A stretch of DNA of 64,000 nucleotides. Origin: Amycolatopsis azurea DSM 43854. GTDB lineage: Bacteria; Actinomycetota; Actinomycetes; Mycobacteriales; Pseudonocardiaceae. The notes below the pieces were generated by a model. That model was not told the DNA's origin, did no database searches, and worked only from the letters and a program-made list of their open reading frames with translations. Below, one piece after another: positions 166 through 63,672 of the stretch (positions within the stretch are counted from its first letter, which is position 1; each line of letters begins with the position of its first letter). Location: assembly GCF_001995215.1 (NCBI RefSeq), contig NZ_MUXN01000001.1, forward strand, positions 1 to 64,000, read 5' to 3'. A program made the position numbers and the translations under genes.

Positions 166-2010
166 TCAGCGGAGTCCGACGGCCCGTAGCGCGAAGTACA
201 CCTCGATCGCCGTCTGTTTGATCGTCTCGGCGATCACCAGCGACCCGTGGCCCGCGTCGAAACGGTAGAACTCGAACGGGATCTCGCGCTTCGCGAGCCT
301 GCCGAGGTAGTTCTCGACCTGCCGGATCGGGCAGCGCGGGTCGTTGTCCCCGGCGAGCACCAGCACCGGTGCCGTCACGGCCTCGACGTAGGTGATCGGC
401 GAGCATTCCCGGTACACCGCCGGCACCGTCTCCGGCGAACCGCCGAACAGCGCCCTGTCGAACGAGCGCAGCTGCTCCATCTCGTCCTCGTACGCGGCGA
501 CGTAGTCCGCGACGGGCACTCCCGCGACCCCCGCCGCCCACCGCGCGGGCTGGGTGCCCAGCGCCAGCAGGCTCAGGTAGCCGCCCCACGAAGCGCCGTT
601 CACCACGCACTTCTCCGGATCCGCGAGTCCACTTTGGACGGCCCAGTCGTGCACGGCGGCGACGTCTTCGAGTTCGGTCAGACCGGGGCGGCCTTCGATG
701 GCGTCGCGCCAGGCCGAGCCGTAGCCGGTCGAGCCGCGGTAATTGACCTCGACGACGGCGAAACCGGCGTCGAGCCAGACCGCGCGGTACGCGGAGAACC
801 GGTCCTCGTCCGCCGAATGCGGCCCGCCGTGCAGGGAGAAGACCGTCGGAAGCGGGCCTTCGGGCGCGTCGGCCGGGCGCGAGACCAGCGCGTGGATCTG
901 CCCGCCGATCCCGTCGACGAACGCGTCGGTGACGGGCGCGGACTCCGGCGCCCGCTCGCCCGGCGGTTCGAGGAGGACCGAGTCGGCGCCGTCCGCGGTC
1001 CGCGCGCGCACCGCCGTCGGCCGCGCGGCACTGGACCACGAGTACTCGACGGTGCCGTCGGGCCGCACCCCGGCGCCGCCGATCCGGCCGGGCGGAGTGT
1101 CCAAAGAGGACAGCTCGCCGCTCGTGAGGTCGTACCGGTGAAGGGAACTGCGGCCCTGGTGGAAGTGAACGACCAGCAGCGCCCGCGCGTCCGGGTACCA
1201 GCCCGCGACCACTTCGCCGGGCAGATCGAGTTCGATCTCCCGCTCGGTGTCCGCGGCGGTGTCCCAGATCAGCAGTTCCTCGCGGCCGCGCCGCTCGTGC
1301 AGCACCAGCAACCGCTGGTCGCCCGCGACCGGTGAGAACTCCAGCGCGCCGAGGCCCTTGCCTTCACCGTCCCACTTGTCGGCAACCGTGGTGAAGCCGT
1401 TTGTCGACAGAACGCGCAGTGCGGGGTGTCGCGAATCACCGTGCTCGGAGTGGGAGATCGCGAGCAGCGACTCGTCGCGGGAAAGCGAGGCGATCCCGGC
1501 GTCGTCCTCGTGCCGGTAGAAGCTCGTGGTCTCGCCGCCGATGTGGGCGAAGAGTTCGCTGCCGTCGTCGGTCGAGACGCCGACCGCGATCACGCGGGTG
1601 CCGATCTCGAGCCCGGCGGGGTAGCCGTCGTGGACGTCCGGCACCGCGCGTTCGGCGGCGGCCCCCGGCGCGAACGGTTCGCGGACCCAGGAACCGAACT
1701 CGTCGCCGTCGGTGTCGTTGAACCACCAGATCCAGCGCCCGTCGGGCGACGGTGTGGCGTGCATCGTGCCGTTGGGGCGGTCGGTGACGCGGCGGTGCTC
1801 GCCGGTCGAGCGGTCCCAGGAGTAGACCTCCCAGACGCCGCTGGCGTTGGAGACGTAGACGTTCGCGTCCGGGGCGTCGATGGCCCACTCGGGGACCGAG
1901 ATGCGCGGCGCGTGGAAGCGGGCCCGCCACTTGGCCTCGGCTTCGGCGTCTTCGAACAGGCGGTCCGGGACCGCCGCGGACGGATATTCATTGCCTGGCT
2001 GCGTGCTCAC
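166..2010 (-). CDS. Prolyl oligopeptidase family (S9) serine peptidase
   Basis: A 614-residue cytosolic protein (no signal peptide) with an N-terminal half of WD/beta-propeller-like repeats and a C-terminal alpha/beta-hydrolase domain. The nucleophile elbow GASWGG is near residue 473. The acid is probably the Asp in LAGDNDPRCP and the base the His in DAGHGS near the C-terminus. The family (acylaminoacyl peptidase/dipeptidyl peptidase type) cleaves short peptides; the exact specificity cannot be read here. The start is a GTG (MSTQPGNEY) only 30 bases from the divergent methyltransferase start, so the two genes share a very short promoter region. Confidence 0.88.
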   Translation of the reverse strand: MSTQPGNEYPSAAVPDRLFEDAEAEAKWRARFHAPRISVPEWAIDAPDANVYVSNASGVWEVYSWDRSTGEHRRVTDRPNGTMHATPSPDGRWIWWFNDTDGDEFGSWVREPFAPGAAAERAVPDVHDGYPAGLEIGTRVIAVGVSTDDGSELFAHIGGETTSFYRHEDDAGIASLSRDESLLAISHSEHGDSRHPALRVLSTNGFTTVADKWDGEGKGLGALEFSPVAGDQRLLVLHERRGREELLIWDTAADTEREIELDLPGEVVAGWYPDARALLVVHFHQGRSSLHRYDLTSGELSSLDTPPGRIGGAGVRPDGTVEYSWSSAARPTAVRARTADGADSVLLEPPGERAPESAPVTDAFVDGIGGQIHALVSRPADAPEGPLPTVFSLHGGPHSADEDRFSAYRAVWLDAGFAVVEVNYRGSTGYGSAWRDAIEGRPGLTELEDVAAVHDWAVQSGLADPEKCVVNGASWGGYLSLLALGTQPARWAAGVAGVPVADYVAAYEDEMEQLRSFDRALFGGSPETVPAVYRECSPITYVEAVTAPVLVLAGDNDPRCPIRQVENYLGRLAKREIPFEFYRFDAGHGSLVIAETIKQTAIEVYFALRAVGLR

Positions 2011-2040: not shown

Positions 2041-2742
2041 GTGTGCGGGGTGCTGGAGGGAAACGCGCCGCGCGCCGCGGTGTCCGCGCGGTCAGCGCGC
2101 CAGGCGGTCGAACGGGCCGTGTTCGCGCAACCGCTGTTCGGACCGGGGATGGGGTTCGTCGACGTCGGCTGCGGGCCGGGTTCGATCACCCTCGGTATCG
2201 ACAACGGGCACAGAAAGTCCACAGTGGACTTTCTGGTGGCGGACGCGTGTGCCTTGCCGTTCGCCGAGGCGTCCGTGGACGTGGTCTTCGCACATGACGT
2301 CTTCGAGCATCTTCGGGAGCCAGGTGCCGCGCTGGCGGAGCTCCGGCGGGTGCTCAAGCCGGGCGGCGCGCTCGCACTGTCCACATCGGACTGGAGCCGG
2401 GCGCGGCTGCGGCCGAAGACGGCGAACGTCGATGCCGCCCTTCGCGGGCACTATCTGTTGTGCCGTCGTGCGGGTGGCGACCCGTTCGCCGGGCGCTCGA
2501 TCTCCGCCGCGGTCACCGCCGCGGGTTTCACTGACGTGCGAACGAAAACCCGCTACCGCGCGGACGTGACGTACCGGGCGCTGGCGACGTACGTGGAGGC
2601 GCGTCTGGTGACGGCGCTGGAGACCGCGACGACCCCGGACCGGGATCAGCTCGCTTCGGCCGCCCGCTCGGCGTGGTCTTGGGCGCGGTCGGGGGACGGG
2701 GATTTCGCGCAGTGCTGGACCGAGCTTCTCGCGACTCGCTGA
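2041..2742 (+). CDS. Small class I SAM-dependent methyltransferase, shortened core
   Basis: About 233 residues from GTG 2041 (GTG 2050 is an alternative); the open frame extends upstream but there it only shadows the peptidase gene. Motif I VDVGCGPGSITLGI and the later VVFAHDVFEHL...LKPGG segment are typical of ubiE-like methyltransferases. Between motif I and VDFLVADACALPF only about eight residues remain, where relatives usually have 25-35 holding the second strand and the acidic SAM-ribose ligand. A perfect 25-base palindrome lies exactly there (2211-2235). The frame is intact. Substrate unknown; SAM binding may be impaired. Confidence 0.7.
   Translation: MCGVLEGNAPRAAVSARSARQAVERAVFAQPLFGPGMGFVDVGCGPGSITLGIDNGHRKSTVDFLVADACALPFAEASVDVVFAHDVFEHLREPGAALAELRRVLKPGGALALSTSDWSRARLRPKTANVDAALRGHYLLCRRAGGDPFAGRSISAAVTAAGFTDVRTKTRYRADVTYRALATYVEARLVTALETATTPDRDQLASAARSAWSWARSGDGDFAQCWTELLATR
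2211..2235. repeat. Perfect palindrome inside methyltransferase gene
   Basis: CAGAAAGTCCAC, one base, then GTGGACTTTCTG. It sits where the canonical methyltransferase core loses about 25 residues. Its centre GTCCACAGTGGAC belongs to the GTCC-N5-GGAC semi-palindrome family seen throughout this window. Confidence 0.8.
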
Positions 2743-7304: not shown

Positions 7305-7307
7305 GGA

Positions 7308-8441
7308 TCAGGACTGGGTGGCTAGGCGTGTGCCGATGTCGCGCAGGCCTTCGAGATCGTGCACGTCACTGGGGAGCGCGGGCACCCGCACCAGCGGGAC
7401 CTCGGGATGCGCCCGCGTGAACCTGGCGAGCAGCCGCGTCTCCCGATCGGCCAGCGCGACCCGGTCCGCGTGCAGGCGTAGGACGGCTTCGGCCAGCGGA
7501 GCGCTGGTCTCGCCCTTCGCCAGCTGTTCGGCGGCCGCGATGGCTTCGGCGCTGGACAGCGGGGCGAGCACCGGATGCGTCCGGTTCGCGACCAGCCCGG
7601 CCAGCGGCATGCTCTCTTCCGAAAGCCGCTCCACGAAGTAGGACGCCTCGCGCAGCGCGTCCGGCTCCGGCGCGGCGACCACGAGGAACGACGTCCCGCC
7701 GGACCGCAGCAGCTCGGAGGTCTTGCGCGCGCGTTCGCGGAAGCCGCCGAACATGCTGTCGAAGGCCTGCATGAACGCCGAAGCGTCGGTCAGCAACTGG
7801 CCGCCGATGATCGTCGAGACGGCCTTCGCGAACATCGAGAACCCGGCGTTGACGACCTTGCGCAGACCCCAGCCGCCCGCCTTGGCCGGACCGGTGAGCA
7901 GCCGGATCATCCTGCCGTCGAGCGCGCTCGAAAGCCGTGTCGGCGCGTCGAGGAAGTCCAGCGCGGACCGGCTCGGCGGCGTGTCGACGATGATCAGATC
8001 CCATTCGTCGGTGGCCGCGAGCTGCCCCAGCTTCTCCATCGCCATGTACTCCTGCGTGCCGGAGAACGACGTGGAAATGGTCTGGTAGAAGGGGTTCTGC
8101 AAGAGCTGTTCGGCGCGCTCCGGGCCGGCGTGCACCCGCACCATGTCGTCGAAGGTGCGGCGCATGTCGAGCATCATCGCCCAGAGTTCGCCCTTGGGCT
8201 CGAAGCCTTCGACCTGCACCTGCTTCGGGTGATTGCCCAGTTCGCGCAGGCCGAGCGCCTGCGCCAGCCGCCGGGCCGGGTCGATGGTGAGCACCACCGT
8301 CTGCCGTCCGCGTTCGGCCGCGCGCAACGCCAACGCCGCCGCGGTGGTCGTCTTGCCGACGCCGCCGGACCCGCAGCAGACGATGACCCGGCTCTCCGGA
8401 TCGTCGATCAGCTTGTCGATCTCCAGGATGTCGTCCGGCAT
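7308..8441 (-). CDS. ArsA-like P-loop ATPase (Rv3680 type)
   Basis: A 377-residue soluble ATPase of the ArsA/GET3 class. It has the deviant Walker [14 protein letters not shown] near the N-terminus, a switch I/II-like [16 protein letters not shown] segment, and no CxxC tail-anchor zinc motif. Its ATG shares one base with the TGA of the second ArsA-like gene, so the two are translationally coupled and probably work as a heterodimer. In mycobacteria this pair is linked to redox stress and glycerol tolerance; the cargo is unknown. No metal-binding cysteine triad is seen, so arsenite transport is unlikely. Confidence 0.85.
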
Positions 8442-9739: not shown

Positions 9740-10684
9740 TCAGCTCCCGATCGGGGTCGCGGGCACGCACGGCACCGGCTTCGCGTGCGCCGGGTCGAGC
9801 GCGTTGAGGACGTGACCGGCCGCGTTGCGGTCGGCGGCGACCCCGGCGTGCTCCGCCAGGTCCAGCAGGCAGCCGTCCTGCAGGACGATGTTCTTCACGT
9901 TCGGCCCCTTCCCGAGCCCGCTCGTGTACGGGACGACGGCTTCGTCGTAGCGGGTCAGGATGTTCGTGTACGTCACACCCGGCTGGAAGACGCCGTTGCC
10001 GGAGCGCAGGTTCGTGAGGAATTCGGAACCGCGCAGGAACTGGCGGCACGAGCCGCAGACCGGGTCGAGGATCCCGTTGATCCCGGGCGCCAGGCCCAGC
10101 GCGCTCGCGAGCGCGTACAGCTGCGAAGCGCCGAACAGCGTCGTGCCGTCCCAAAGCGGGGTGAGGCTCACGTACTTGTCCACTTTGGACGCTCCGCCGA
10201 GGAACTTCACGTAATAGGAAGGCATCAGCGTGCCCTCGGAATGCCCGAGGATGTCCACCTTGGACGCGCCGGTCGCGCCGAGCACCTTGTCGACGAACGC
10301 CGAGAGTTCCTTCGCGCTCTGTTCCATCGGCAGGAGTCCGCCGGGCTGATAGATCGGCAGCGGCTCGCCGGGGACCCCGTAGGTCAGGGAGAAGACGCAG
10401 TACCCGTTGTTCTTGAGCAAGGGGCTGTACGTCTGCCAGTTCACCGTCTGGTTGGCGCCGAGGCCGTGGGTGAGCACGACCGGGTTCGGATGCGCGGCAC
10501 TCGGACGGCAGCCGAAGTCGTTCGCGCCGGGCGGCGGGCCGCCGGGGTTCGCCGCCTGCGCGGGCAGCGCCGCCGCGAGAGTCCACGGAACGGGAAGCTT
10601 CTCGTCGGCGTTCGCCGGTGAAACGCAGATCAGGGCAAGGGCCGCGGCCAGGAAGGCGACGGCGAGGGACTTCGTTGTCCGCAT
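9740..10684 (-). CDS. Secreted triacylglycerol lipase/esterase (alpha/beta hydrolase)
   Basis: 314 residues with a Sec signal peptide (MRTTKSLAVAFLAAALALICVSPANA). The oxyanion segment VVLTHGLGANQ and nucleophile elbow GHSEG place it in the lipase class 2 (EstA/LipB-like) family. A likely disulfide is the Cys pair in DPVCGSCRQF. It would act outside the cell on acyl esters. The gene is divergent from the DUF4177 gene, and a perfect palindrome lies just upstream of its start. Confidence 0.85.
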   Translation of the reverse strand: MRTTKSLAVAFLAAALALICVSPANADEKLPVPWTLAAALPAQAANPGGPPPGANDFGCRPSAAHPNPVVLTHGLGANQTVNWQTYSPLLKNNGYCVFSLTYGVPGEPLPIYQPGGLLPMEQSAKELSAFVDKVLGATGASKVDILGHSEGTLMPSYYVKFLGGASKVDKYVSLTPLWDGTTLFGASQLYALASALGLAPGINGILDPVCGSCRQFLRGSEFLTNLRSGNGVFQPGVTYTNILTRYDEAVVPYTSGLGKGPNVKNIVLQDGCLLDLAEHAGVAADRNAAGHVLNALDPAHAKPVPCVPATPIGS

Positions 10685-14174: not shown

Positions 14175-14941
14175 GCGCCCCCGCGTACGGCGTGCTGCGC
14201 CGGGTGACGCCGACGGCTTCCGTGCTGCTGGAGCACAACCCGTCCTCGATGACGTTGGAGGGCACCAATTCCTGGGTGCTGCGCGGGCCGGGCGCGTCCG
14301 GTTCCGTGGTCGTCGACCCCGGTCACGAGGACGTCGAGCACCTGACCCTGCTGGCGGAAACCGGCGACGTCGAGCTGATCGTCCTGACCCACCATCACCC
14401 GGACCACGCCGAGGGCGCGCCCTGGTTCGCCGAGCGGACCGGTGCTCCGGTGCGGGCGTTCGACGAGTCGCTCTGCGCCGGCGGGAAGTCCCTTGTGGAC
14501 GGTGAGGTGATCGAGGCGGCCGGGTTGCGGCTCTCGGTGCTGCACACGCCGGGGCACACCGGCGACTCGATCTGCCTGGTGTCCGACGGGCAGATCCTGA
14601 CCGGTGACACCATCCTCGGCCGAGGCACCACCGTGCTGCACGACCTCGGCGACTACCTGCGCTCGCTGCGCAAACTCATCGCACTGCCCGAGGGCACCAC
14701 CGGCCTGCCCGGGCACGGCCCGGAACTGCCCGACCTCGCCGCGACCGCGCGCGAGTACCTGGCGCACCGGGAAGAACGGCTGGATCAGGTGCGTTCGGCA
14801 CTGAAGGAACTCGGTGCGGACGCCACCCCGCGCCAGGTCGTCGAGGTCGTCTACGCCGACGTCGACAAGGCCTTGTGGGCGCCCGCCGAGTGGAGTGTGC
14901 AGGCACAGTTGGACTACCTGAGGTCGGAGGACGGCGAATGA
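14171..14941 (+). CDS. Metallo-beta-lactamase-fold hydrolase (Rv3677c/LACTB2-like)
   Basis: 256 residues from ATG 14171, overlapping the NUDIX stop. The metal motif THHHPDHAEGAP (HxHxDH), the second His in LHTPGHTGDS, the Asp in LTGDTILG and GLPGHGPEL give a complete two-zinc site. Relatives include LACTB2-like nucleases and glyoxalase II-like thioesterases; the C-terminal helical REYLAHREERLDQV segment favours the LACTB2 branch. It also overlaps the glutaredoxin-like gene by an ATGA. Confidence 0.87.
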   Translation: MSAPAYGVLRRVTPTASVLLEHNPSSMTLEGTNSWVLRGPGASGSVVVDPGHEDVEHLTLLAETGDVELIVLTHHHPDHAEGAPWFAERTGAPVRAFDESLCAGGKSLVDGEVIEAAGLRLSVLHTPGHTGDSICLVSDGQILTGDTILGRGTTVLHDLGDYLRSLRKLIALPEGTTGLPGHGPELPDLAATAREYLAHREERLDQVRSALKELGADATPRQVVEVVYADVDKALWAPAEWSVQAQLDYLRSEDGE

Positions 14942-15329: not shown

Positions 15330-16394
15330 TCAGCGTGGGAGCATCGGCATCACGTAATACGTCAGTTCCACGTCGCCCGGCTCCACCGCGCGGATGACGC
15401 AGGCCCGCATCCCGGGCTGGATGTCGAGCCGTACCCGTTCCCCGGCGAATCCCTGCAACGCGTCCAGCAGGTAGCGCGCCTGGAACGAGGGCGACGTCCG
15501 GCCGCCGGAGACCTCGGCCTTCAGTGTCTCCTCGGCCTCCCCGGTGTCCTGCTTGGAACTGGCCAGGCGCAGCTGCGAGTCGCCGACCTCCAGCGTCAGC
15601 ACCCGCCGCTCGTCCGCGTAGACGCCCACCCGGCGCACCGCGGCGGCCAGCGCGTCGGCGGAGACCTCGACCGTCGTGTCCACTGTGGACGACTCGATCA
15701 GCTTCTCGGACAGGAATCCCGCGTCGAGCACGGCGGTGGTGACGGTGACGCCCGCCCAGCTCAGCCCGAACCTGGTCCCGTCTCCGTGCAGGCCGACGGT
15801 GCCGCGTGCCTGTTTCGCCGTCTCGGCGAGCAGGCCGGCCGGGACGAGCGCGTCGATCGGCTCGCCTTCGGCGCGCAGCGGAAGCGTGGCCACGGCCATC
15901 CGGTACCTGTCGGACGCCGTCAGCCGCAGCTCGCGGCTGAAGCTCTGCACCCGGACGCCGGTGAACATCGGAAGCGCGTCGTCCTTGGCCGCCGTGCCCG
16001 CGACCGTCCGCAGCGCCGTCGCCAGCGCGGCACCGTCCACTTCGGACACCTTGGGTGGCATCTCCTGGAGCCGCAGTTCGCGGCTCAGCAACGGCAGCGC
16101 GAACCGGCCGCCTTCCACTCGCACGGCCAGCCGCGATCCCTCGACGACCAGGCGCACCAGGTCGTCTTCGAGCATGCGCAACGTCTCCGCGAGCGGACCG
16201 GCCGGGACGAGGACCTCGCCGTCGGTGTGCACGACGGCGTCACAGGTCAGGCGGACCGCTCGTTCGCTGTCGTTGCCGCCGACGGTCAGGCCGTCCCGTC
16301 CGGCGCGCAGGAGCAGGCCGGACCGGGCCGAGAGCAGCCGTGCGGCGGCGGAAACGGCGGACGAGAGGGAGCGGGTGGCGGCAGTCAGGTCCAT
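15330..16394 (-). CDS. DnaN-like DNA sliding-clamp paralogue
   Basis: 354 residues laid out as three repeated clamp domains: an N-terminal MDLTAATRSLSSAVSAAARLLSAR, a middle domain with MFTGVRVQ...LRLTASDRYRMAVATLPL (the DnaN T/A-x-D-xYR signature), and a C-terminal domain ending ELTYYVMPMLPR, close to the YLLMPMR tail that forms the protein-binding pocket. The chromosomal replication clamp normally sits beside dnaA, which is not here, so this is a second clamp. A role in repair or translesion synthesis is a guess. It stops 60 bases from the redoxin terminator. Confidence 0.8.
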   Translation of the reverse strand: MDLTAATRSLSSAVSAAARLLSARSGLLLRAGRDGLTVGGNDSERAVRLTCDAVVHTDGEVLVPAGPLAETLRMLEDDLVRLVVEGSRLAVRVEGGRFALPLLSRELRLQEMPPKVSEVDGAALATALRTVAGTAAKDDALPMFTGVRVQSFSRELRLTASDRYRMAVATLPLRAEGEPIDALVPAGLLAETAKQARGTVGLHGDGTRFGLSWAGVTVTTAVLDAGFLSEKLIESSTVDTTVEVSADALAAAVRRVGVYADERRVLTLEVGDSQLRLASSKQDTGEAEETLKAEVSGGRTSPSFQARYLLDALQGFAGERVRLDIQPGMRACVIRAVEPGDVELTYYVMPMLPR

Positions 16395-21639: not shown

Positions 21640-22824
21640 GTGAACTGGGTTGACGTACTGGTGATCCTGCTCGCGCTGCTGGCGGGCGTGTCCGGCGCGT
21701 TCCAGGGGGTGATCATCGCCCTGCCGTCACTGGTCGGGGTGGTGCTGGGCGCGCTGGCGGGGATCAAGATCGCGCCGTTGGTCGTCGAACTCTTCGAGCA
21801 TCCGGCGGCGAAGGTCGCCTTCGCGGTGGCGACCGTGGTGTTCCTGGTCGCGCTCGGCGAGACCCTCGGCGTGTGGGCCGGGCGGAAACTGCGCCAGAAG
21901 ATCAACCCTGACAAGCTTTCCGGCGTCGACAAGACCCTCGGCGCGGTGGTGCAGGCCGCCGTCGTGTTCGTGGTCGCGTGGCTGATCGCGACGCCGCTCA
22001 CGGCCGTCTCGGGAGTGCCTGGGCTGGCGAAGTCGATCAACGGCTCGGTGGTGCTCGGCGGCGTCAACGACGTCATGCCGGAAGCGGCGCAGGGCTTTCC
22101 GAGCGAACTGCGCAAACTGCTGGACAAGTCGGGCTTCCCGTCCATTGTGGACCCGTTCCAGAAGCCGAACGTCGAGGACACCAGCCCGCCGGACACCGCG
22201 CTGCAGGCGAGCGCGATCGTCAAGCAGGTGCACGGCAGCGTCGTGAAGATCCGCGGCAACGCGACCAAGTGCTCACGGGCGCTGGAGGGCAGCGGATTCG
22301 TCATCGCGCCGCAGCGCGTGATGACGAACGCGCACGTCGTCGCGGGGACCGACGAGGTCGCCATCGAGTCGACCTCGGGCAAGTTCCCGGCGCGGGTCGT
22401 CTACTTCGATCCCGAAGCCGACGTCGCCGTGCTCGCGGTGCCGAGGCTGCAGGCGCCGGTGCTCCCGTTCACACCGAAGGTCGCGCGGGCGGGCGACAAC
22501 GCGATCGTGCTCGGCTACCCGCTCGACGGCCCGTACACCGCTTCGCCCGCCAGAGTGCGCGGCCGGATCAACCTGCGCGGACCGGACATCTACGAGTCCA
22601 ACACCGTGCAGCGCGACGTGTTCACCGTGCGCGGGCAGGTCCGCAGCGGTAACTCGGGCGGGCCGATGATCAACCCCGACGGCGAGGTCATCGGGGTCGT
22701 CTTCGGCGCGGCCGTCGAGGATCCGGAGACCGGCTTCACGCTGACCTCCGAGCAGGTGCGGCCGGTGGTGGACACGGCTCCGTCGCTGAGCGCGAACACG
22801 TCGACCGGTCGCTGCGCGAATTAG
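21640..22824 (+). CDS. marP: MarP-type membrane serine protease (CvpA domain plus trypsin-like domain)
   Basis: 394 residues. The N-terminal third has four membrane spans (CvpA-like: VDVLVILLALLAGVSGAFQGVIIALPSL...); the rest is a chymotrypsin-fold periplasmic domain. The triad is H232 (TNAHVV), D261 (EADVAVL) and S339 (GNSGGP), almost the same numbering as M. tuberculosis MarP (H235, D264, S343). Cysteines in ATKCSRAL and the C-terminal GRCAN match the redox-active pair. In mycobacteria MarP maintains pH homeostasis in acid and cleaves the peptidoglycan hydrolase RipA. Confidence 0.93.
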   Translation: MNWVDVLVILLALLAGVSGAFQGVIIALPSLVGVVLGALAGIKIAPLVVELFEHPAAKVAFAVATVVFLVALGETLGVWAGRKLRQKINPDKLSGVDKTLGAVVQAAVVFVVAWLIATPLTAVSGVPGLAKSINGSVVLGGVNDVMPEAAQGFPSELRKLLDKSGFPSIVDPFQKPNVEDTSPPDTALQASAIVKQVHGSVVKIRGNATKCSRALEGSGFVIAPQRVMTNAHVVAGTDEVAIESTSGKFPARVVYFDPEADVAVLAVPRLQAPVLPFTPKVARAGDNAIVLGYPLDGPYTASPARVRGRINLRGPDIYESNTVQRDVFTVRGQVRSGNSGGPMINPDGEVIGVVFGAAVEDPETGFTLTSEQVRPVVDTAPSLSANTSTGRCAN

Positions 22825-23278: not shown

Positions 23279-24198
23279 GCCTCCAAGATACGGAGAAACT
23301 CCACCAGCGCGGCCGACGTGCGGTCCGGGGCCTCCAGATGCGGGAAGTGGCCGATGCCGGGCCAGCGTTCGAGCCGGGCGTCCGGGGCCCAGCGTCGTGA
23401 CGCCGCCGCGGTCTCGGGCAGGACGCACCGGTCTTCCTCGCCGTGCAGTTGCAGCACCCGGGGAGCGAAGCGGCCTCGCAGCGCTTCGCTGAACCGCCGG
23501 CCTTCGCCGCGGAACTGCGCGCGGAACGCCCAGCGGTAGTACTCCAGCGCGCTGTGCGGCACGCCAGGTACGAGCATCGCCTGCCGGAACGCCCGGACGG
23601 CTTCCTCGAAGTCCGGCGTGTCCGTCCACTGTGGACCGGCCCAGTCGCGGAACAGCTCTTCGACGGCGAGCGCGTCGTCCTTGACCAGCCATTTTTCCGG
23701 CGCCATGGGTACCTGGAAGCGGAACAGATGTCCCGACGCCCTCAGCTGTCCCGGCCGTTTGACGGCGGTGCGCAACGCCAGCGGGTGCGCGCCGCCCAGC
23801 ACCGTCACCGAGGAGACCAGCCGGGGGTGCAGCGCGCCGACCGTCCACGCGAGCATGCCGCCCCAGGCATGTCCGGCGAGATGGGCCTTGCGCGCGCCGA
23901 GTGACTTGATCAGCCCGCCGACGTCGCCCGCGAGAGTCCAGGCGTCGTAGCCGCGCGGGGGTTTGTCCGAGTCGCCGTAGCCGCGCAGATCCACCGCGAC
24001 CGCGCGGAAACCGGCGTCGGCGAGCGCTGTCAGCTGGTGGTGCCAGGTCCACCAGAACTCGGCGAACCCGTGCAGCAGCACGACGAGCGGTCCGTCGCCG
24101 AGTTCGGCGACGTGCAGCCGGATGCCGTTCGCCGAGACGTCACGATGGGTCCACGGACCGTCGATCCGGACGATCGACGGATCCGGCGTCGCCTGCAC
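23275..24198 (-). CDS. Epoxide-hydrolase-like alpha/beta hydrolase lacking the nucleophile (EphE position)
   Basis: 307 residues, soluble, with the oxyanion motif LLHGFAEFWWTW and VDLRGYGDSDKPPRGYD as in epoxide hydrolases. The nucleophile elbow reads GHAWGG: the codon at the Asp/Ser position is GCC (Ala). A late acid (EEDRCVLP) and His (GIGHFPHLEAP) are present. M. tuberculosis EphE (Rv3670) occupies the same place. Without a nucleophile, ordinary esterase or epoxide-hydrolase chemistry is not expected; it may be a binding protein or use another mechanism. Confidence 0.8.
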   Translation of the reverse strand: MQATPDPSIVRIDGPWTHRDVSANGIRLHVAELGDGPLVVLLHGFAEFWWTWHHQLTALADAGFRAVAVDLRGYGDSDKPPRGYDAWTLAGDVGGLIKSLGARKAHLAGHAWGGMLAWTVGALHPRLVSSVTVLGGAHPLALRTAVKRPGQLRASGHLFRFQVPMAPEKWLVKDDALAVEELFRDWAGPQWTDTPDFEEAVRAFRQAMLVPGVPHSALEYYRWAFRAQFRGEGRRFSEALRGRFAPRVLQLHGEEDRCVLPETAAASRRWAPDARLERWPGIGHFPHLEAPDRTSAALVEFLRILEA

Positions 24199-36123: not shown

Positions 36124-36851
36124 CGGATCCGCTGAAGCCGCTGCTGGACCTCGAAGGGGTCGCGGCGGCCGCGAAATCGGCCCAGGACGCGGTGTTCGCC
36201 GTCCACCGGCTGCCCGCCAACCTGCGCGGCGGCGCGGCGACGGCCGCCGAGGCGTCCGTGCGGTCGGCGCGGGCGTCGGCCGGGATCGAGGGCGCGGCGC
36301 CCGAACTGCCGGAATCCGGCGAGGTGACCGATCCGGTGCTGGCAGGCGCGCTGCGTGTCGCGGAAGCCTTGGAGGGCTTGCTCCCGACCTGGCGGCGGGC
36401 GCCGTTGCAGGCGTTGGCGCGCTTGCACGTTCTCGCCGCGTCGGACCTGGTGACGGACCTCGACGCGCTCGGGCGGCCGCGGTCGTCCGGCGACGTCGGC
36501 CCGCGGCTGGAGCTGCTGGCGCAACTGGTCACCGGCGCGACGTCGGTGCCGGGTCCGGTGCTGACCGCCGTCGTGCACGGAGAACTGTTGGCGCTGAAGC
36601 CTTTCGGCTCCGCGGACGGTGTCGTCGCGAGGGCGGCGGCGCGGCTTTCGGCGGTGGCGACGGGGCTCGATCCGAAGGCGCTGACGGTGCCGGAGGTCGC
36701 GTACTTCCGGCGGGTGCCGAAGTACATCGAGGCCGCTTCATCCTTCGCCGGCGGGACGCCCGACGGCGTCCGCGCTTGGCTGCTCTTCTCCTGCGAAGCC
36801 TTCGAGGCCGGTGCCCGCGAGGCGAAGTCCATCTCGGACGCCGCCGGCTGA
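36120..36851 (+). CDS. Degenerate Fic-domain protein
   Basis: 243 residues from GTG 36120, coupled to the phosphoribosyltransferase gene. The sequence SAGIEG near residue 55 matches the Fic inhibitory motif [S/T]xxxE[G/N]. At about 160, LKPFGSADGVVARAAAR aligns with the active-site loop HPFxxGNGRxxR, but the catalytic His is Lys, the Asn is Asp and the first Arg is Val. AMP transfer by the usual mechanism is therefore unlikely. Actinobacterial relatives are often mislabelled oxidoreductases. I infer a pseudoenzyme or new activity. Confidence 0.65.
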   Translation: MTDPLKPLLDLEGVAAAAKSAQDAVFAVHRLPANLRGGAATAAEASVRSARASAGIEGAAPELPESGEVTDPVLAGALRVAEALEGLLPTWRRAPLQALARLHVLAASDLVTDLDALGRPRSSGDVGPRLELLAQLVTGATSVPGPVLTAVVHGELLALKPFGSADGVVARAAARLSAVATGLDPKALTVPEVAYFRRVPKYIEAASSFAGGTPDGVRAWLLFSCEAFEAGAREAKSISDAAG

Positions 36852-39114: not shown

Positions 39115-40955
39115 CCGTTGTGGACAGTGCTGAGACGGCGAGGTCGTTGCGCCGGCTGCTCGAGCTGCTCGCCTCCGGGGCGGGCAGCGAGCAGCTGGCG
39201 CACGTCCCCGTCGATCCGAAGGCCACCGAGCTGGCGCTGCGGATCCGGGACACCGTCGCCGAGCACCGGCGGCGGGAGGCGGAGCTGGCCGCGTTGTTCG
39301 ACACCGCCAGCGATCTGGCCCGGCTGGACGATCCGGACGCCGTCCTCCGGTCGATCGTGCGGCGGGCGCGGGCGCTGCTCGGCGTGGACGTCTCGTACCT
39401 CAGCCTGAAGAACGAGGCCGAGGGCAACACCTACGTCCGGGTCACCGACGGTTCGGTTTCCGCGCTGTTCCAGGACATCGTGCTGGGCATGGGCGAAGGG
39501 CTCGGCGGACTGGTCGCGCAGACCGCGCGGCCGTACGCGACGGCGGACTACTTCAACGACGAGCGGTTCCACCACACCTCGTCGATCGACACCGGGGTGC
39601 TCGACGAGGGGCTGACCGCGATCCTCGGGGTGCCGCTGGCGATCGGCAGCAAGGTCATCGGGGTGCTGTTCGCCTCGGACCGGGCGGCGCGGGAGTTCAG
39701 CGCGGAGGAGGTCGCGCTGCTGTCGTCGCTGGCCGACCACGCGGCGATCGCGCTGGACAACGCGCATCTGCTGGACGAGACGCGCCGCGCGGTCGCCGAG
39801 CTGAACGACGCCAACGCGACGATCAGCGCGCACAACGACGCGATGCGCCGCGCCGAAGACGCGCACGATCGGCTGATGGATCTCGTGCTGCGCGGCGGTG
39901 ACCTGGCCGAGGTCGCCGCCGCCGTCGCGGACGTGCTCGGCGGCGCCATCGCCGTCTACGACGCCGAAGGTGTCGTCCTGGCCCGGACCGACGGGGAGCT
40001 GAGCCTCTCGCGCGCGGCGGTGTCGGCGTCCCGGACGAGCGGGCGGGCGGTGTCCACTGAGGACGGTTGGCTGTGCGCGGTCCAGGCGGGGCAGGAGTTC
40101 CTCGGCAGTCTCGTGCTGGGCGGCGGCCGGTCGCTCGGCGAGGCGGACCGGAGGCTGTTCGAGCGGGCGGGCGTGGTCACCGCGGTCCTGCTCATGCAAC
40201 GGCGGTCCGTCGCGCGTGCCGAGGACGAGGTACGCGGGGAGCTGCTGTCGGATCTGCTCACCGCGCCCGGCCGGAATCCCGCCGCCTTGCTGGCGCGAGG
40301 ACGGCGACTCGGAGTCGATTTGTCGATATCGCACGCGGTGCTGATCGCGCGTTCCGACGACGTCTCACGGCGACGGCTGGCCGCGGCGGCCGCCCGGCAC
40401 GCGGCCCTGGTCGGTGTGCACGCGGACGAGGTCGTCCTGCTGGTCCGGGGAACGGACGCCGGCGCGCTCGCGAGATCTGTCGCCGCCGAACTCGGGTCCA
40501 CAATGGACTGTCCGGTGACGGTGGGCGCGGCGGGTCCGGCCGCCTCGCCGCGCGAACTGGCCGTGGCGCACGCCGAGGCCGCGCGGTGCGTCGCGTCGCT
40601 ACTGGCGCTGGGCCGGGTGGGCGAAGGCGCGAGCACGGCCGACCTCGGCTTCGTCGGGCTGCTCCTCGGCGAGCACGCCGATCTCGGCGCGTACGTGACG
40701 GCCACGATCGGGCCGGTGCTCGACTACGACGAACGCCGCGGCACGGATCTGATCGGCACCCTCCGCGCGTATTTCGCCTGTGGCGGCAACCTGACGAAGG
40801 CGAAGGATCAGCTTCACGTGCACGTCAACACCGTCGTGCAGCGGCTGGACCGCATCGCGTCACTGCTGGGCGAACACTGGCAGGCGCCCGAGCGCGCGCT
40901 GGAACTCCAGCTCGCGCTCAGGCTGCACCGCCTCACCAATGACCGAAACGGATGA
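39111..40955 (+). CDS. GAF-domain PucR/CdaR-type transcriptional regulator
   Basis: 614 residues from ATG 39111, overlapping the symporter stop. Order: short N-terminal coil, GAF domain about 60-220 (VSYLSLKNEAEGNTYVRVTDG...GVPLAIGSKVIGVLFASDRAAREFSAEE), a middle CdaR-like region, and a C-terminal PucR helix-turn-helix (LIGTLRAYFACGGNLTKAKDQLHVHVNTVVQRLDRI). It most likely senses 3-hydroxybutyrate or a derived acid and controls this operon. Its last 23 bases overlap the converging nitroreductase gene. Confidence 0.88.
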   Translation: MTVVDSAETARSLRRLLELLASGAGSEQLAHVPVDPKATELALRIRDTVAEHRRREAELAALFDTASDLARLDDPDAVLRSIVRRARALLGVDVSYLSLKNEAEGNTYVRVTDGSVSALFQDIVLGMGEGLGGLVAQTARPYATADYFNDERFHHTSSIDTGVLDEGLTAILGVPLAIGSKVIGVLFASDRAAREFSAEEVALLSSLADHAAIALDNAHLLDETRRAVAELNDANATISAHNDAMRRAEDAHDRLMDLVLRGGDLAEVAAAVADVLGGAIAVYDAEGVVLARTDGELSLSRAAVSASRTSGRAVSTEDGWLCAVQAGQEFLGSLVLGGGRSLGEADRRLFERAGVVTAVLLMQRRSVARAEDEVRGELLSDLLTAPGRNPAALLARGRRLGVDLSISHAVLIARSDDVSRRRLAAAAARHAALVGVHADEVVLLVRGTDAGALARSVAAELGSTMDCPVTVGAAGPAASPRELAVAHAEAARCVASLLALGRVGEGASTADLGFVGLLLGEHADLGAYVTATIGPVLDYDERRGTDLIGTLRAYFACGGNLTKAKDQLHVHVNTVVQRLDRIASLLGEHWQAPERALELQLALRLHRLTNDRNG

Positions 40956-41521: not shown

Positions 41522-42793
41522 TCAGCTTAGTGCGCAACCGGTCGCCAGGTCGCCGTCTCCACGGGGGATGGTCGCGGAGGCGGGTGGGCGAACGCCGTCG
41601 AGCCAGCCTTCGAGAGCGGTGAAGGCCGTCCGGAAACATGGGCCGATAGGACGCAGCTTGCCGGGAAAGGCGTCGTACAACCCGTCGACGTGGTTGCCGT
41701 CGACGATCCGGTAATAGCGCTGTAGCCCGGCGCGGCCCTGATCGGCGATCATCCGCTGGTAGACGTCGGAATCGCGGGTGATCGGGAGGAGGGTGTCGAG
41801 GGTGCCGTGCAGGGTGATCAGCGGTTTGCCGATCCGGCCGGTCAGCGAGATCCGTTCGACCGCACGGTGCACCGACGGCGGACGGGTGGCGTAGTCGTAG
41901 CCGGTCCCGGTGAACGACGGATCGAATTCGGCTTGGTAGATCCGTTGGGTCAGCCCCCAGTAGACGTCGTTGTGGTACTGCCAGAGGAATTCCGATCCCG
42001 GCGCGAACCCGGCGTCGAGAATCTGGCGGTGGGCTTGTGCCGAACCGGCGACGTAAGCGGGGTAGGCCTCGATCGCGGGCGGCAGGAACGTGAACAGGTT
42101 CGGCCCGTCCTCGTGCCAGAGCGTGCCCTCCCAGTCGATGCCGCCGTCGTAGAGCCACGGCCGGTTCTCCAGCTGCCAGCGGACGAGGTAGCCGCCGTTC
42201 GACATCCCGGCCGCGAGGGTGCGGCTCGGCAGGCGTCCGTAGCGGTGCGCCACGGCGGCCTTCGCGGCGATGGTCAGCTGCGTGACCCGCGAATTCCACT
42301 CGGCGAGCGCGTCGCCGGGGCGCCGTCCGTCGGTGTGGAAGTCAGCGCCGGTGTTGCCCTTGTCGGTCGCGGCGAACGCGTAGCCGGCGGCGAGGACCTG
42401 GTCGCCGATCGCGCGGTCGTTCGCGTACTGGCGGCGCACGCCGGGGGAGCCGGAGATCACGAGGCCGCCGTTCCAGCGGTCGGGCAGCCGCAACACGAAC
42501 TGCGCGTCGTGGTTCCAGCCGTGCGCGGTGTTGGCCGTCGAGGTGTCCGGGAAATAGCCGTCGATCTGGATGCCGGGAACACCTTGGGGGGCGGGGAGGC
42601 CTGCCGAGGTCAGCCCGGCCCAGTCGGCCTGGACCGTATGCCCGGTGACCAGTGTTCCGGTGGTCGTCAGATCGTCCAAACAGGACAGTTCTTGCTCGGC
42701 GGCGCCGGGAACGCGCACGTTCCCGCAACCGCTCGCCGCCTGGGCGGGCGTGGCCAGGGCCAGCATCATCGCGAGGACCAGAATGAGCCGCAT
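41522..42793 (-). CDS. Secreted tannase/3-hydroxybutyrate-oligomer-hydrolase-like enzyme
   Basis: 423 residues from ATG 42793 with signal peptide MRLILVLAMMLALATPAQAA. Nucleophile elbow GMSNGG, acid in LHGTLDTLLP, His in DGNHVDGLYD. Cysteines GCGNV, LSCLDD, GPCFRT and TGCALS probably form disulfides. Sequence style fits tannase/feruloyl esterase and the extracellular 3-hydroxybutyrate oligomer hydrolases. Divergent from the PHB depolymerase gene, which favours cleavage of hydroxybutyrate oligomers; aromatic ester hydrolysis remains possible. Confidence 0.72.
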   Translation of the reverse strand: MRLILVLAMMLALATPAQAASGCGNVRVPGAAEQELSCLDDLTTTGTLVTGHTVQADWAGLTSAGLPAPQGVPGIQIDGYFPDTSTANTAHGWNHDAQFVLRLPDRWNGGLVISGSPGVRRQYANDRAIGDQVLAAGYAFAATDKGNTGADFHTDGRRPGDALAEWNSRVTQLTIAAKAAVAHRYGRLPSRTLAAGMSNGGYLVRWQLENRPWLYDGGIDWEGTLWHEDGPNLFTFLPPAIEAYPAYVAGSAQAHRQILDAGFAPGSEFLWQYHNDVYWGLTQRIYQAEFDPSFTGTGYDYATRPPSVHRAVERISLTGRIGKPLITLHGTLDTLLPITRDSDVYQRMIADQGRAGLQRYYRIVDGNHVDGLYDAFPGKLRPIGPCFRTAFTALEGWLDGVRPPASATIPRGDGDLATGCALS

Positions 42794-45274: not shown

Positions 45275-45331
45275 GAGTGTCCCCAATGTGGCATTGGGGA
45301 CACTCAGCGTCTCCAATGCCACATTGGGGGC
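45275..45331. repeat. Dispersed palindrome family GTGTCCCCAATG, copy 2
   Basis: GTGTCCCCAATG-TGG-CATTGGGGACAC (45277-45303) is identical to the hairpin at 2789-2815. It is followed by CCAATG-CCA-CATTGG, the half unit that precedes the hairpin in copy 1, so the unit order is reversed. Lies between two convergent genes. Confidence 0.8.
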
Positions 45332-46519: not shown

Positions 46520-47470
46520 TCAGCTCGCGCGCACCCGCAGGGAGTCGAGAGCCTTCCGTACATGGCCATCGCTGGCCGTCAGCGCCTTCGCCGCGCTCGC
46601 GACGTCCTCGCCGGACAACAGATGGACCAGCGCCACCTTGAGGTCGCCGTCGGCCTCGGTGAGCGCGTCAGAGCAGTCCGCCATGCTCATCCCCGTGGCC
46701 TCGCGCAGGATCCGGATGGTCCGCCCGCGCAGCTTCGCGTTGGTCGCGCGCATGCTGACCATCAGGTTCGAGTACGTGCGGCCGAGCTTGATCATCGTCG
46801 CCGTGGAGAACGCGGTGAGGATGATCTTCTGCGCCGTGCCCGCCTTCATCCGCGTCGACCCGGCGATCGCCTCGGGGCCGGTGTCCACCGCGATGAGGAC
46901 ATCGACACCGGGCGGCGTCACCGCGGCCGGATTGCCCGAGACCAGCGCGGTCCGGGCACCGCGACGGCTGGCCGCGGCCAGCGCGCCGAGCACGTAGGGC
47001 GTCCGGCCGGAAGCCGTCAGCCCGAGCACGAAGTCACCGGGCGCGACGGTGTCCGCCACTTCGGCGGCTCCTGCCTTCGCGTTGTCCTCGGCGTCTTCGA
47101 CGGCTTGACGCAGAGCGCGCGCGCCGCCCGCGTGATGCGCGATGAACCAGTCGGAGGGCACGTTGAACGTGGGCACGAGCTCCGCCGCGTCCAACGTCGC
47201 CAGCCTGCCGGAGGTACCGGCGCCGAAGTAGTGCACGCGGTGGCCCGACCGCAGCGCCTCCACGGCGAAGTCGACCGCCCGGGCCACCTGCGGCAAGACC
47301 GCGGCGACGGCTTCGGGGACCCTGCGGTCCTCGGCGTTGATCGCGCCGAGGATGCCCATGGTCGACATCAGGTCGATGTCGGTCGTCCGTGGATTTCGCT
47401 GTTCGGTTGGCGAATCGACGTGCACCACCTGGCGTGGGACGGTCATCATGCGCCTCACTTTTTCGCTCAT
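46520..47470 (-). CDS. murQ: N-acetylmuramic acid 6-phosphate etherase
   Basis: 316 residues; SIS-domain lyase with the MurQ signature VHYFGAGTSGRLATLDAAELVPTF, then GLTASGRTPYVLGAL and TRMKAGTAQKIILTAFSTA. It cleaves the lactyl ether of MurNAc-6-phosphate to GlcNAc-6-phosphate and lactate in peptidoglycan recycling. The ATG overlaps the murR stop. No PTS MurP or MurNAc kinase gene is in the window, so the source of MurNAc-6-phosphate is open. Confidence 0.94.
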   Translation of the reverse strand: MSEKVRRMMTVPRQVVHVDSPTEQRNPRTTDIDLMSTMGILGAINAEDRRVPEAVAAVLPQVARAVDFAVEALRSGHRVHYFGAGTSGRLATLDAAELVPTFNVPSDWFIAHHAGGARALRQAVEDAEDNAKAGAAEVADTVAPGDFVLGLTASGRTPYVLGALAAASRRGARTALVSGNPAAVTPPGVDVLIAVDTGPEAIAGSTRMKAGTAQKIILTAFSTATMIKLGRTYSNLMVSMRATNAKLRGRTIRILREATGMSMADCSDALTEADGDLKVALVHLLSGEDVASAAKALTASDGHVRKALDSLRVRAS

Positions 47471-61179: not shown

Positions 61180-63672
61180 TTACTGGGACCCGTGTTGACG
61201 CAACGCCCCGAGCACGGTGTCCAGAACGGCCACGGCCCCCGCCTTGTCCAGCGGATCGTTGCCGTTCCCGCACTTCGGCGACTGGACGCAGGACGGGCAG
61301 CCGGCCGGGCACTCGCAGGAAACGATCGCCTCCCGCGTTGCGGCCAGCCAAGGGACAATTGCGGCAAACCCGCGATCGGCGAATCCCGCACCCCCGGGAT
61401 GGCCATCGTGCACGAACACCGTCGCCTCCCCGGTGTCCTCGTGCCACGCGGTAGACACCCCGCCAATGTCCCAGCGGTCGCAAGTAGCGAACAGCGGTAG
61501 CAGGCCGATCGCCGCGTGCTCGGCGGCATGCAGGGCACCGGGGACGCGCGCCGGATCCAATCCGGCGCCCGTCCCCGGTGCTCCGCCAAGTTCCTCGGTC
61601 CCCACCCTGGAGCCTCCGGTCCCCACCGGCTCCAGAACTTCGGTCCCCACCCGATGGCCCCCGGTCCCCGCCACGCCATCGGAAGGCAGGCCATCGGAAG
61701 AACCGAGCAGCTCCGCCGAGATCGTGTACCAGACGGCGCGGGTGTGCAGGCTCTGCTCCGGCAGGTCCAGCGGAGTCTGGTCCAGCACCTCACCCGACGG
61801 CCGTCTCCGCAAGTAGCCGACGACTTGCGAACTCACCGAAACCTCGCCGAGGTTCACCGTGATCCCGCCGTGCACCCTGGTCTCTTCGGTGCGCAGCACA
61901 CTGATGTCGACGATCTCGCGCGGTGACGTGCTCCAGTCCGGATCCTCCGCGTGCACCAGGGCGAGCCCCGTCTCCAGATCGAGTTCGTCGACCACATAGG
62001 ACGAACCCTGGTGCAGGTACACCGCACCGGGATGCACCGCGTAGCAGGCGGAACCCGGGTCGACCGTGCCGAGCATCCGCCCGGAATCGGCCTCCACCAC
62101 GGCGATCTGCTCGCCGCCGGAACCGCGGATGCCGACCTCGGAGTGCGGCCGGTCGCGCGAAGTCCAGTACCAGCCGCTCGTGCGGCGACGGATGATCTTC
62201 TCCTTGACCAGATCCGCGAGCACCGCACGCGCCGCGTCGCCGCCGAAGGCCGCGACCTCCGGTTCGGTCAGCGGGAGTTCGGCGATGGCGCAGGCCAGCT
62301 GCGGACCCAGCACATACGGGTTCGACGGATCGAGGACGGCGGCTTCCACCGGCCTGTCCAGGATCGCGGCCGGATGGTGCACGAGATAGGTGTCCAGCGG
62401 ATCGTCGCGGGCCACGAAGACGACCAGCGCCGCGTCTCCCGCGCGCCCGGCCCGGCCCGCCTGCTGCCAGAACGACGCGAGCGTTCCCGGATAACCGGCC
62501 AGCACCACCGCGTCCAGCCCGGCGATGTCGACGCCGAGTTCGAGTGCGTTCGTCGTCGCCACACCGAGCAGCCGCCCGGACAGCAACGCCGCTTCGAGGG
62601 CACGACGCTCCTCCGGCAGATACCCGGAGCGGTACGCGGCGACCGATTCCGCCAGCGAACCGTCCACTTCGGACAGAATCCGCCGCGCGCCGAGCGCCGT
62701 CAGCTCCGCGCCGCGCCGGGACCGGACGAACGCCAGCGAGCGCGCGCCCTCGATGACCAGTTCGGCGAGGATCCGGGAAGCCTCGGCGCCCGCCGATCGC
62801 CGCACCGGCGCCCCGTTCTCGCCCGAAATCTCCGACAGCAGCGGGGGCTCCCACAACGCGACCGTGCGGGAGCCGCGCGGCGAAGCGTCCTCGGTGACCG
62901 GGACACATTCCTGCCCGGTGAGCTTCGACGCGAACGCCGCCGGGTCCGCGGTCGTCGCCGACGCGAGAACGAAGACCGGCGAAGCGCCGTAGTACGCCGC
63001 GACCCTCCGCAGCCTGCGCAACAGCAGCGCGACGTGGGAGCCGAAGACGCCGCGGTAACTGTGGCATTCGTCGACCACGACGAACGAGAGCCGCCGGAAG
63101 AACCGGGACCAGCGCGAGTGCGACGAGAGGATCCCGCGATGCAGCATGTCCGGGTTCGTGAACACCCAGTTCGCGTGTGCGCGGACCCAGTCCCGCTCCT
63201 CCAGCGGGGTGTCGCCGTCGTACGACGCCGGCCGCGCTTTCTTGATGTCCAAAGAGGACACGGACCGCAGCTGGTCGGCGCCGAGCGCCTTGGTCGGGGA
63301 AAGGTAGAGCGCCGAAGCCCGCTCGTCCTCGACCAGAGCCGAAAGCACCGGCAGCTGGTACGCGAGCGACTTGCCCGACGCTGTCCCGGTGGAGATCACG
63401 ACGTGCTCGCCCTCGCGCGCCAGCGACGCGGCTTCGGCCTGATGCCGCCACGGAGCCTTGACGCCGCTCGCCTTCAGTGCTTCGACCACTCCGTCCGCCG
63501 CCCACTCCGGCCAATCCACCGAATCCGCCTGCCGCGCGGGCAGCTCGGCCACATGGGTGACCGGGTACAGCGAAGCCGGGATTCCCGCCGTCGCGCGGTC
63601 GAGAAGCCGCCGTCCCTTACCGGATTCCGCCGTGCCGTCCACCTTCGGAACCTTGGCACAGCGCACCGACAA
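61180..63672 (-). CDS. Mrf/Hrq1-type DEAD/DEAH-box helicase with Zn-binding DUF1998 region (Rv3649)
   Basis: 830 residues. Superfamily 2 motifs: STGTASGKSLAYQLP (I, near 92), VVVDECHSY (II), LASATT (III), GVATNALELGVDIAGLDAV (V), QQAGRAGRAG (VI). The C-terminal DUF1998-type region ends with a four-Cys cluster (SCECPAGCPSCVQSPKCGNGND). Related MrfA works in repair of mitomycin cross-links. An insertion near 665-695 made of VGTxxxR/VGTEEL repeats is unusual. It is divergent from the gene starting at 63962 across 289 bases in which I see no other gene. Confidence 0.9.
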   Translation of the reverse strand: MSVRCAKVPKVDGTAESGKGRRLLDRATAGIPASLYPVTHVAELPARQADSVDWPEWAADGVVEALKASGVKAPWRHQAEAASLAREGEHVVISTGTASGKSLAYQLPVLSALVEDERASALYLSPTKALGADQLRSVSSLDIKKARPASYDGDTPLEERDWVRAHANWVFTNPDMLHRGILSSHSRWSRFFRRLSFVVVDECHSYRGVFGSHVALLLRRLRRVAAYYGASPVFVLASATTADPAAFASKLTGQECVPVTEDASPRGSRTVALWEPPLLSEISGENGAPVRRSAGAEASRILAELVIEGARSLAFVRSRRGAELTALGARRILSEVDGSLAESVAAYRSGYLPEERRALEAALLSGRLLGVATTNALELGVDIAGLDAVVLAGYPGTLASFWQQAGRAGRAGDAALVVFVARDDPLDTYLVHHPAAILDRPVEAAVLDPSNPYVLGPQLACAIAELPLTEPEVAAFGGDAARAVLADLVKEKIIRRRTSGWYWTSRDRPHSEVGIRGSGGEQIAVVEADSGRMLGTVDPGSACYAVHPGAVYLHQGSSYVVDELDLETGLALVHAEDPDWSTSPREIVDISVLRTEETRVHGGITVNLGEVSVSSQVVGYLRRRPSGEVLDQTPLDLPEQSLHTRAVWYTISAELLGSSDGLPSDGVAGTGGHRVGTEVLEPVGTGGSRVGTEELGGAPGTGAGLDPARVPGALHAAEHAAIGLLPLFATCDRWDIGGVSTAWHEDTGEATVFVHDGHPGGAGFADRGFAAIVPWLAATREAIVSCECPAGCPSCVQSPKCGNGNDPLDKAGAVAVLDTVLGALRQHGSQ

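Follow-up and report, generated by a model that had tools for sequence, protein, structure and literature searches.

A genome-wide, lineage-specific and maintained palindromic DNA word in Amycolatopsis azurea

We analysed the first 64,000 nucleotides (the window) of contig NZ_MUXN01000001.1 (C1, positions 1-64000) from the 9.22 Mb draft genome of Amycolatopsis azurea DSM 43854 (54 contigs), focusing on the gapped palindrome GTCC-N5-GGAC (GTCCNNNNNGGAC; the N5 form), which has no strand polarity. The window carries 19 exact copies relative to a mean of 3.37 in 100 dinucleotide shuffles (standard deviation 1.78, maximum 9), upholding the over-representation that a preliminary description of this DNA had noted against an estimated expectation of two to three. 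The excess belongs to a single spacing; GTCC and GGAC are separated by five bases 19 times, and by any other gap from 0 to 13 bases only one to seven times each. An A follows GTCC in 17 of the 19 copies, as first described; the AT-rich centre that had also been ascribed to them is present in 15, which carry A or T (W) at the central position, and fails at 7956, 10253, 36827 and 46604.

Two W-centred copies, GTCCACTTTGGAC at 627..639 and GTCCAAAGAGGAC at 1099..1111, lie in the same Peptidase_S9 gene (Pfam assignment), and are followed by GTCCACAGTGGAC at 2217..2229, a copy of the consensus form whose palindrome is extended by the flanking bases, and by the W-centred GTCCACATCGGAC at 2379..2391. 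A second GTCCACTTTGGAC copy, at 10178..10190 in a Lipase_2 gene, is intact in all nine named Amycolatopsis genomes that could be aligned there; the W-centred copies GTCCCTTGTGGAC at 14488..14500 and GTCCATTGTGGAC at 22140..22152 are each intact in 9 of 10 such genomes, and the consensus copy GTCCACTGTGGAC at 23624..23636 in 8 of 9. The same consensus sequence, GTCCACTGTGGAC, recurs at 15678..15690 (intact in 10 of 10) together with the W-centred GTCCACTTCGGAC at 16035..16047 (intact in 9 of 10) within a single beta-clamp-like gene of the DnaN family. Further W-centred pairs share a PucR-type regulator gene (GTCCACTGAGGAC at 40052..40064 and GTCCACAATGGAC at 40496..40508) and an MrfA-type helicase gene (GTCCACTTCGGAC at 62662..62674 and GTCCAAAGAGGAC at 63247..63259), while GTCCAAACAGGAC at 42674..42686 is W-centred in a Tannase-like gene. 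The remaining four copies, GTCCAGCGCGGAC at 7956..7968, GTCCACCTTGGAC at 10253..10265 and GTCCATCTCGGAC at 36827..36839 with C at the centre, and GTCCTCGCCGGAC at 46604..46616 with G, are of background type and fall outside the enriched class defined below. Fifteen of the 16 exact starts given earlier stand, the sixteenth, entered as 2389, being at 2379; the copies at 7956, 36827 and 46604 had been missed, and near copies at 5600 and 31826 are as they had been given.

The beta-clamp gene itself (15330-16394) possibly encodes a second sliding clamp. Searched with a method limited to close relatives, the genome collection has 17 loci that encode a relative of its protein; identity is 92-98% in ten Amycolatopsis genomes (98% in A. 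thailandensis, which NCBI assigns to Pseudonocardiaceae, 97% in A. oliviviridis and 96% in A. coloradensis), 66% in an Amycolatopsis metagenome-assembled genome (MAG), 51% in Tamaricihabitans and 50% in five Saccharothrix.

Over the whole genome the N5 form occurs 2,279 times and the same word written backwards, used as a control, 190 times; the corresponding counts for the W-centred form, GTCC-NN-W-NN-GGAC, are 1,669 and 54. Motif-level statistics were obtained from samples of this genome (464 kb at first, then 1.264 of 9.216 Mb) with genes predicted by a home-made caller based on codon usage, which leaves gene starts approximate; expectations came from 40 synonymous-codon shuffles for coding DNA and from a second-order Markov model for intergenic DNA. 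In the 1.264 Mb, codon phases 0, 1 and 2 contained 30, 20 and 176 W-centred copies relative to 3.75, 2.08 and 8.43 after shuffling (observed-to-expected ratios, O/E, of 8.0, 9.6 and 20.9), an excess irrespective of codon phase. Between genes the form was about sixfold above the Markov expectation (13 versus 2.3), and over all sequence 240 copies were found against a Markov background of 17.8. The G/C-centred form, with 12, 1 and 56 coding copies by phase relative to 7.4, 1.4 and 61.5 (69 versus 70.3 in total), occurred as often as shuffling predicts, indicating that the true word is narrower than the N5 form and that its centre must be W. Its best form, the consensus GTCCACWGTGGAC (the motif site is also written GTCCNNWNNGGAC), was present 32 times in ~1.1 Mb of coding DNA, where the synonymous shuffle gave 0.38. 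A palindromic word this far above chance genome-wide is the hallmark of a highly iterated palindrome (HIP); the word is over-represented, the opposite of the avoidance looked for in a restriction-modification target.

The excess is accommodated at the expense of codons and, it seems, of protein sequence. One codon phase, NNG TCC NNN NNG GAC, accounts for 17 of the 19 window copies, and 12 of the 19 are read as Ser-x-(Val/Leu)-Asp, in agreement with the reading first proposed. In the 464 kb sample, 65 of 83 middle codons in this phase had A or T as their last letter, compared with 10.2% of codons generally. The tetrapeptide STVD was found 36 times relative to 6.1 expected, its reverse DVTS only 5 times; protein sequence thus seems to bend to fit the DNA word. 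The suggestion that selection acts on the DNA rather than on the protein was borne out by the enrichment in all codon phases, with the W form 8 to 21-fold above a codon-preserving shuffle in the 1.26-Mb sample, and by conservation at synonymous sites in samples of two relatives, G007 and G018. Where the central W falls on the third position of a codon, G007 has kept a W in 53 of 57 cases and G018 in 27 of 28, whereas ordinary third-position W was retained in 61.6% of 10,546 and 58.6% of 4,563 cases, respectively. Codon phases, the wobble-position W and location (225 of 240 sampled W copies lie wholly within a called gene) together show the behaviour of a HIP that acts on DNA and is largely coding.

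Conservation of complete sites was evaluated against the same relatives, G007 being a complete chromosome 92.3% identical over 379 kb aligned. Only fully aligned sites in called genes were used, which left 74 (G007) and 32 (G018) of the 97 W copies that C1 carries, with expected intact numbers calculated from phase- and base-specific substitution rates. In G007, 68 of 74 W copies were intact relative to 25.3 predicted, and in G018 27 of 32 relative to 10.1; 14 control half-sites gave 49 of 80 (41.2 predicted) and 17 of 35 (17.9 predicted). A simpler count of intact copies gave 68/76 for W copies, 14/24 for G/C-centred copies and 41/62 for ten control half-sites in G007, and 27/33, 5/7 and 16/28 in G018. 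Since intact copies far exceed the prediction, the DNA word is being maintained. Among aligned copies, 2 of 76 in G007 and 1 of 33 in G018 had a gap within the site, and the remaining differences were substitutions; an insertion-element footprint was therefore rejected as the nature of the site. Among ten named Amycolatopsis genomes, the six W copies that could be aligned from the window were intact in 54 of 58 comparisons, the copy at 15678 having T at its centre in the window and A in all ten others, a change within W; the distant MAG RYN_118, not counted in these 58, was not intact at either of its two comparable sites (15678 and 16035).

Copies could also be retained by a site-directed bias of mutation, repair or gene conversion, the word itself being functionless. 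Of 131 words one letter short of the motif here, 9 were full copies in G007, relative to 1.83 predicted (controls, 17 of 1,405 versus 21.2), as were 3 of 50 in G018 relative to 0.72 (controls, 11 of 534 versus 8.4). The G007 excess is what such a bias would give, but the nine cases carry no direction; G018 has the full word in three of them, which makes loss in the present genome the more likely event there, lacks it in one and is unaligned in five. Third-codon-position divergence was 2.5% at the fixed letters (8/322), 22.6% in the ten flanking bases on each side (106/469) and 14.7% overall, and flanks that diverge faster than the genome average argue that no tract is converted. The excess is moreover smaller at gene starts (given below), which suggests an effect on function, and we regard maintenance by bias of this kind as improbable.

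The letters of the word are not equally constrained. T2, C3 and W7 are nearly strict, substitutions there yielding O/E values of 0.8 to 1.3 except for T2 to A at 2.2; C4 is almost as strict (1.5 to 3.1), and changes are tolerated best at the soft outer G (2.6 to 4.9). Position 5 prefers A over T over G over C, and G is disfavoured at position 6. Spacings of 3, 4, 6 and 7 show no enrichment (O/E 0.4 to 1.2). The gap of five with its degenerate positions 5, 6, 8 and 9 differs from the short, ungapped GC-rich palindrome of a typical HIP. Half-sites alone are without excess (GTCCNNW O/E 0.96; GTCCAC 0.87), and GTCCACW, at 1.69 overall, fell to 202 versus 228 expected once full copies were removed. 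The actinobacterial DnaA box is TTGTCCACA, an asymmetric 9-mer of which single copies suffice and whose right part the half GTCCAC resembles; TTGTCCACA was found 3 times relative to 1.3 expected in the 1.1 Mb of coding DNA. Because half-sites show no enrichment once full copies are set aside, we rejected the DnaA box as an explanation of the word.

These requirements also bear on an element acting in RNA, since an inverted repeat that lies mostly in genes might form an mRNA hairpin, GUCCA-NNN-UGGAC. Changes that would preserve pairing through G-U are not tolerated (T2 to C, O/E 0.90; C3 to T, 0.83), symmetric swaps that preserve pairing are mostly weak (10 of 12 with O/E below 2.5, the soft outer pair giving 2.7 and 3.4), and A or T is required at the centre of the would-be loop. 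With G-U-keeping changes not tolerated, a hairpin is disfavoured to the point of being scarcely credible.

Dyad symmetry around a W centre is typical of helix-turn-helix operators, and the copies could accordingly be the ordinary transcription-factor operators of one regulon. Their location inside called genes argues against this, as does the distribution of the excess, which is lowest at gene starts and in intergenic DNA: the first 60 nt of genes contained 5 copies relative to 0.95 (O/E 5.3), compared with O/E values of 18.5 and 19.2 beyond 300 nt. We consider operators of a single regulon very unlikely. On the scale of the chromosome, density in G007 was 183 to 250 copies per Mb across five bins of distance from parB, and the trend with this distance was not significant (Spearman 0.19, P=0.25, 40 windows of G007). 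A terminus or polarity signal was rejected on the lack of this trend, the strand or origin/terminus bias of regional and polar signals such as FtsK-orienting polar sequences (KOPS), Chi or matS being absent from the word. Sites in the thousands, spread chromosome-wide as judged from the samples, are instead a property of nucleoid-protein targets.

A survey of 397 genomes from the order gave W-form densities of about 126 to 183 copies per Mb in the 13 genomes of the genus of A. azurea and about 8 to 265 in other genera of family f1; three f5 genomes had 46 to 90, two f9 genomes 106 and 19, two f12 genomes 25 and 39, and the remaining families about 2 to 51. Of 296 genomes drawn from the class, the ones not belonging to the order had at most about 17 W copies per Mb. 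The consensus 13-mer varied more sharply, with 183 copies in the present genome, 640 in G318, 323 in G135, 237 in G039, 114 in G056 and 74 in G046, and zero in 10 of 39 genomes examined; within the genus of A. azurea it fell to 6 (G010) and 26 (G012), and G056 and G043, which share a genus, contrast with 114 copies versus 1. Among named genomes, some of which may duplicate numbered ones, 11 Amycolatopsis carried 1,035 to 1,760 W copies, five Saccharothrix 470 to 825 and Tamaricihabitans 450. The genome-wide, lineage-specific and maintained DNA word is real, and the observation is stronger than first claimed. As for mobile elements, no Amycolatopsis record was among the plasmid matches listed for a 25-kb stretch (30 of 70) and for one protein (30 of 110), and TGTCCACWGTGGACA was found in 87 viral-contig stretches (80 listed), about chance by a rough estimate with an assumed collection size; one viral contig (L208:5927-6013) has three TGTCCACWGTGGACA copies in 36-bp steps.

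Other words and repeats of this genome depart from expectation as well. When tetramer inverted repeats with gaps of 0 to 13 were scanned in coding DNA against synonymous shuffles (a scan that at gap 0 includes half lengths of 3, 4, 5 and 6), the W-motif repeat ranked first with a z-score of 22.9, the next having 18.4. Among the repeats covered by a scan of all sequence with a Markov background, four ranked above the motif (z 34.4), namely AAAG-N3-CTTT (50.6), AAGG-N3-CCTT (41.2), GAAA-N5-TTTC (34.7) and GACG-N1-CGTC (34.6), the first three being mostly intergenic. Intergenic double palindromes occur in the window at 2767-2807, 15272-15312 and 45285-45325, and more of them at L031-L090; each consists of two copies of one short inverted repeat (arms AAAG in 28, AAGG in 25 and AATG in 4) whose centres are complementary to each other. 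Of the 57 doublets counted in 1.264 Mb from a preset list of centres, 53 have a distance of 30 bp between the two copies, and 55 of 57 are not inside one called gene. They are possibly long terminator hairpins or a family of repeats like repetitive extragenic palindromic (REP) elements. In the coding sample of this genome, pairs of GATC exceed the synonymous shuffle 1.7 to 3.7 times at six listed spacings, while GCCGGC (964 versus 2,236) and GGCCGGCC (53 versus 203) are strongly avoided. The window also contains a 6C RNA (RF01066; 55268-55343, 70.3 bits).

The abundance of a palindrome in genes, its restriction to certain lineages and its retention all recall HIP1 of cyanobacteria, and the word could likewise be the target of a DNA methyltransferase, with methylation-linked repair or selection making and keeping the copies. 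For a methylase target, however, a gap in which W is required between two NN pairs would be out of the ordinary. We compared 15 motif-rich with 9 motif-poor genomes by Pfam matches at an E-value of 0.001 (PF01555 in 34 genomes). PF02384 was matched in 14 of the rich and 6 of the poor genomes, PF00145 in 11 and 6, and PF07669 in 11 and 4, so that none separates the groups; PF01555 is without a match in the present genome (G000), G003 and G018, and none of the four is matched in G056, despite its 114 copies of the consensus. The PF02384 matches differ in protein size; for the 596 aa frames of G000, G007 and G014, the motif-poor G245 has a match of similar extent (622 aa). That no family tested is in every rich genome weakens the methylase explanation, which we view as unlikely, though with a real chance of being correct. 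HIP words have been linked with cognate methyltransferases and a repair ratchet has been proposed for them, according to passages of Elhai 2015 (PMC4390886). The preliminary comparison with HIP1 stands for abundance, position in genes and lineage restriction; as to its methylase half, PF02384 misses only one of the 15 rich genomes.

We favour, at slightly better than even confidence, the view that the word in its W form is a chromosome-wide site for a putative dimeric DNA-binding protein with a chromosome-scale role rather than one in local gene control. A symmetric word of strict spacing with an A/T centre is what such a protein would need, and it is from this that we infer a dimeric reader; protein binding, dimer state and a chromosome-scale role are all inferences of this kind. 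A homodimer would read the two-fold symmetric GTCC-NN-W-NN-GGAC, with GTCCACWGTGGAC as the optimum, on double-stranded DNA, each subunit contacting TCC and, more softly, the outer G, and the A/T centre might be read indirectly via bending or groove shape. The sites, about one per 5 kb and mostly in gene bodies, would be held by selection, and the job of the protein could be to organise, mark or maintain the nucleoid; gain or loss of the reader would then switch the site population on or off between lineages. That one dimeric protein has imprinted its word on up to thousands of sites, overriding codon and amino-acid choice so that the chromosome is organised or marked, as a unit gained and lost among the families of the order, is a more tentative proposal, which we rate somewhat below even.

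Several observations weigh against such a chromosome-wide protein site. Density along G007 tracks GC content (Spearman 0.48, P=0.0016) and varies more than a Poisson process would (40 windows, mean 3.9, variance 5.7); the two 20-kb loci sampled nearest parB (L267 and L248, at 4.37 and 4.60 Mb of G007) contain no copy where about 8 were expected. Sampled copies also cluster slightly (29 intervals under 500 bases versus 21.8), their spacing being otherwise near random. The G/C-centred form also exceeds the Markov background over all sequence (73 versus 37.6), and by ratio some other inverted repeats in coding DNA equal the motif, for example GATC-N4-GATC with 45 versus 12.2. In genus g59 of family f15 the W form reaches about 51 copies per Mb at most, and yet G103, a genome of that genus, has no consensus 13-mer, so that counts near this level need not mean the same system. 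ParB, the sole chromosome-binding protein tested, is present irrespective of motif richness; a ParB paralogue was rejected as the reader, 21 of 24 genomes having one ParB_N match, with extras in the rich G155 and the poor G214 and the two matches of G042 being halves of one frame. Selection that keeps each of about 1,700 sites is demanding, the copies might also be kept by biased repair or mutation at the site, and PF02384 is, as noted, matched in 14 of 15 rich genomes and 6 of 9 poor ones.

The same-genus contrast of 114 copies versus 1 makes the question of the reader testable, and the difference in gene content between rich and poor pairs should name it. A constraint at the DNA level that forces rare codons and favours one tetrapeptide matters for gene design in these bacteria, as well as for statistical methods in which synonymous sites count as neutral. 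No published account of the word was found in the literature searched, a search that most subscription journals lie outside. In E. coli, the matS site read by MatP is a 13-bp palindrome that organises the chromosome, and matS sites are few and confined to the terminus region; the architecture is similar, but the word described here is present in all five bins of distance from parB, unlike the terminus-bound matS.

Taken together, the word acts like a HIP, with another form and another host than HIP1, and no methylase has so far been tied to it. HIP1 (GCGATCGC) of cyanobacteria is, in the passages of PMC4390886 cited here, likewise very frequent, palindromic, lineage-restricted and retained; the same passages tie highly iterated palindromes to methylases and still call their purpose a mystery. 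Unlike HIP1, the present word is a 13-bp gapped palindrome of Actinomycetota whose spacer is degenerate and whose centre has to be A or T, and none of the four methyltransferase families tested separates rich from poor genomes; a HIP-like word is thereby placed in another phylum. That a nucleoid protein of actinobacteria can have sequence-specific sites in the thousands has a precedent in Gbn (SCO1839) of Streptomyces, a GATC-binding nucleoid protein for which excerpts of its description (PMC9239103) give more than 2,800 bound regions across the genome. The paper, in which the term 'overrepresented' is absent, lists Amycolatopsis orthologues of Gbn, and the site reported in those excerpts is GATCWT, not GTCC-NNWNN-GGAC, so the word described here is not a Gbn site. 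If the more tentative proposal of one imprinting protein is true, the word would be to actinobacteria what HIP1 is to cyanobacteria, but read by a DNA-binding protein and not by a methylase.

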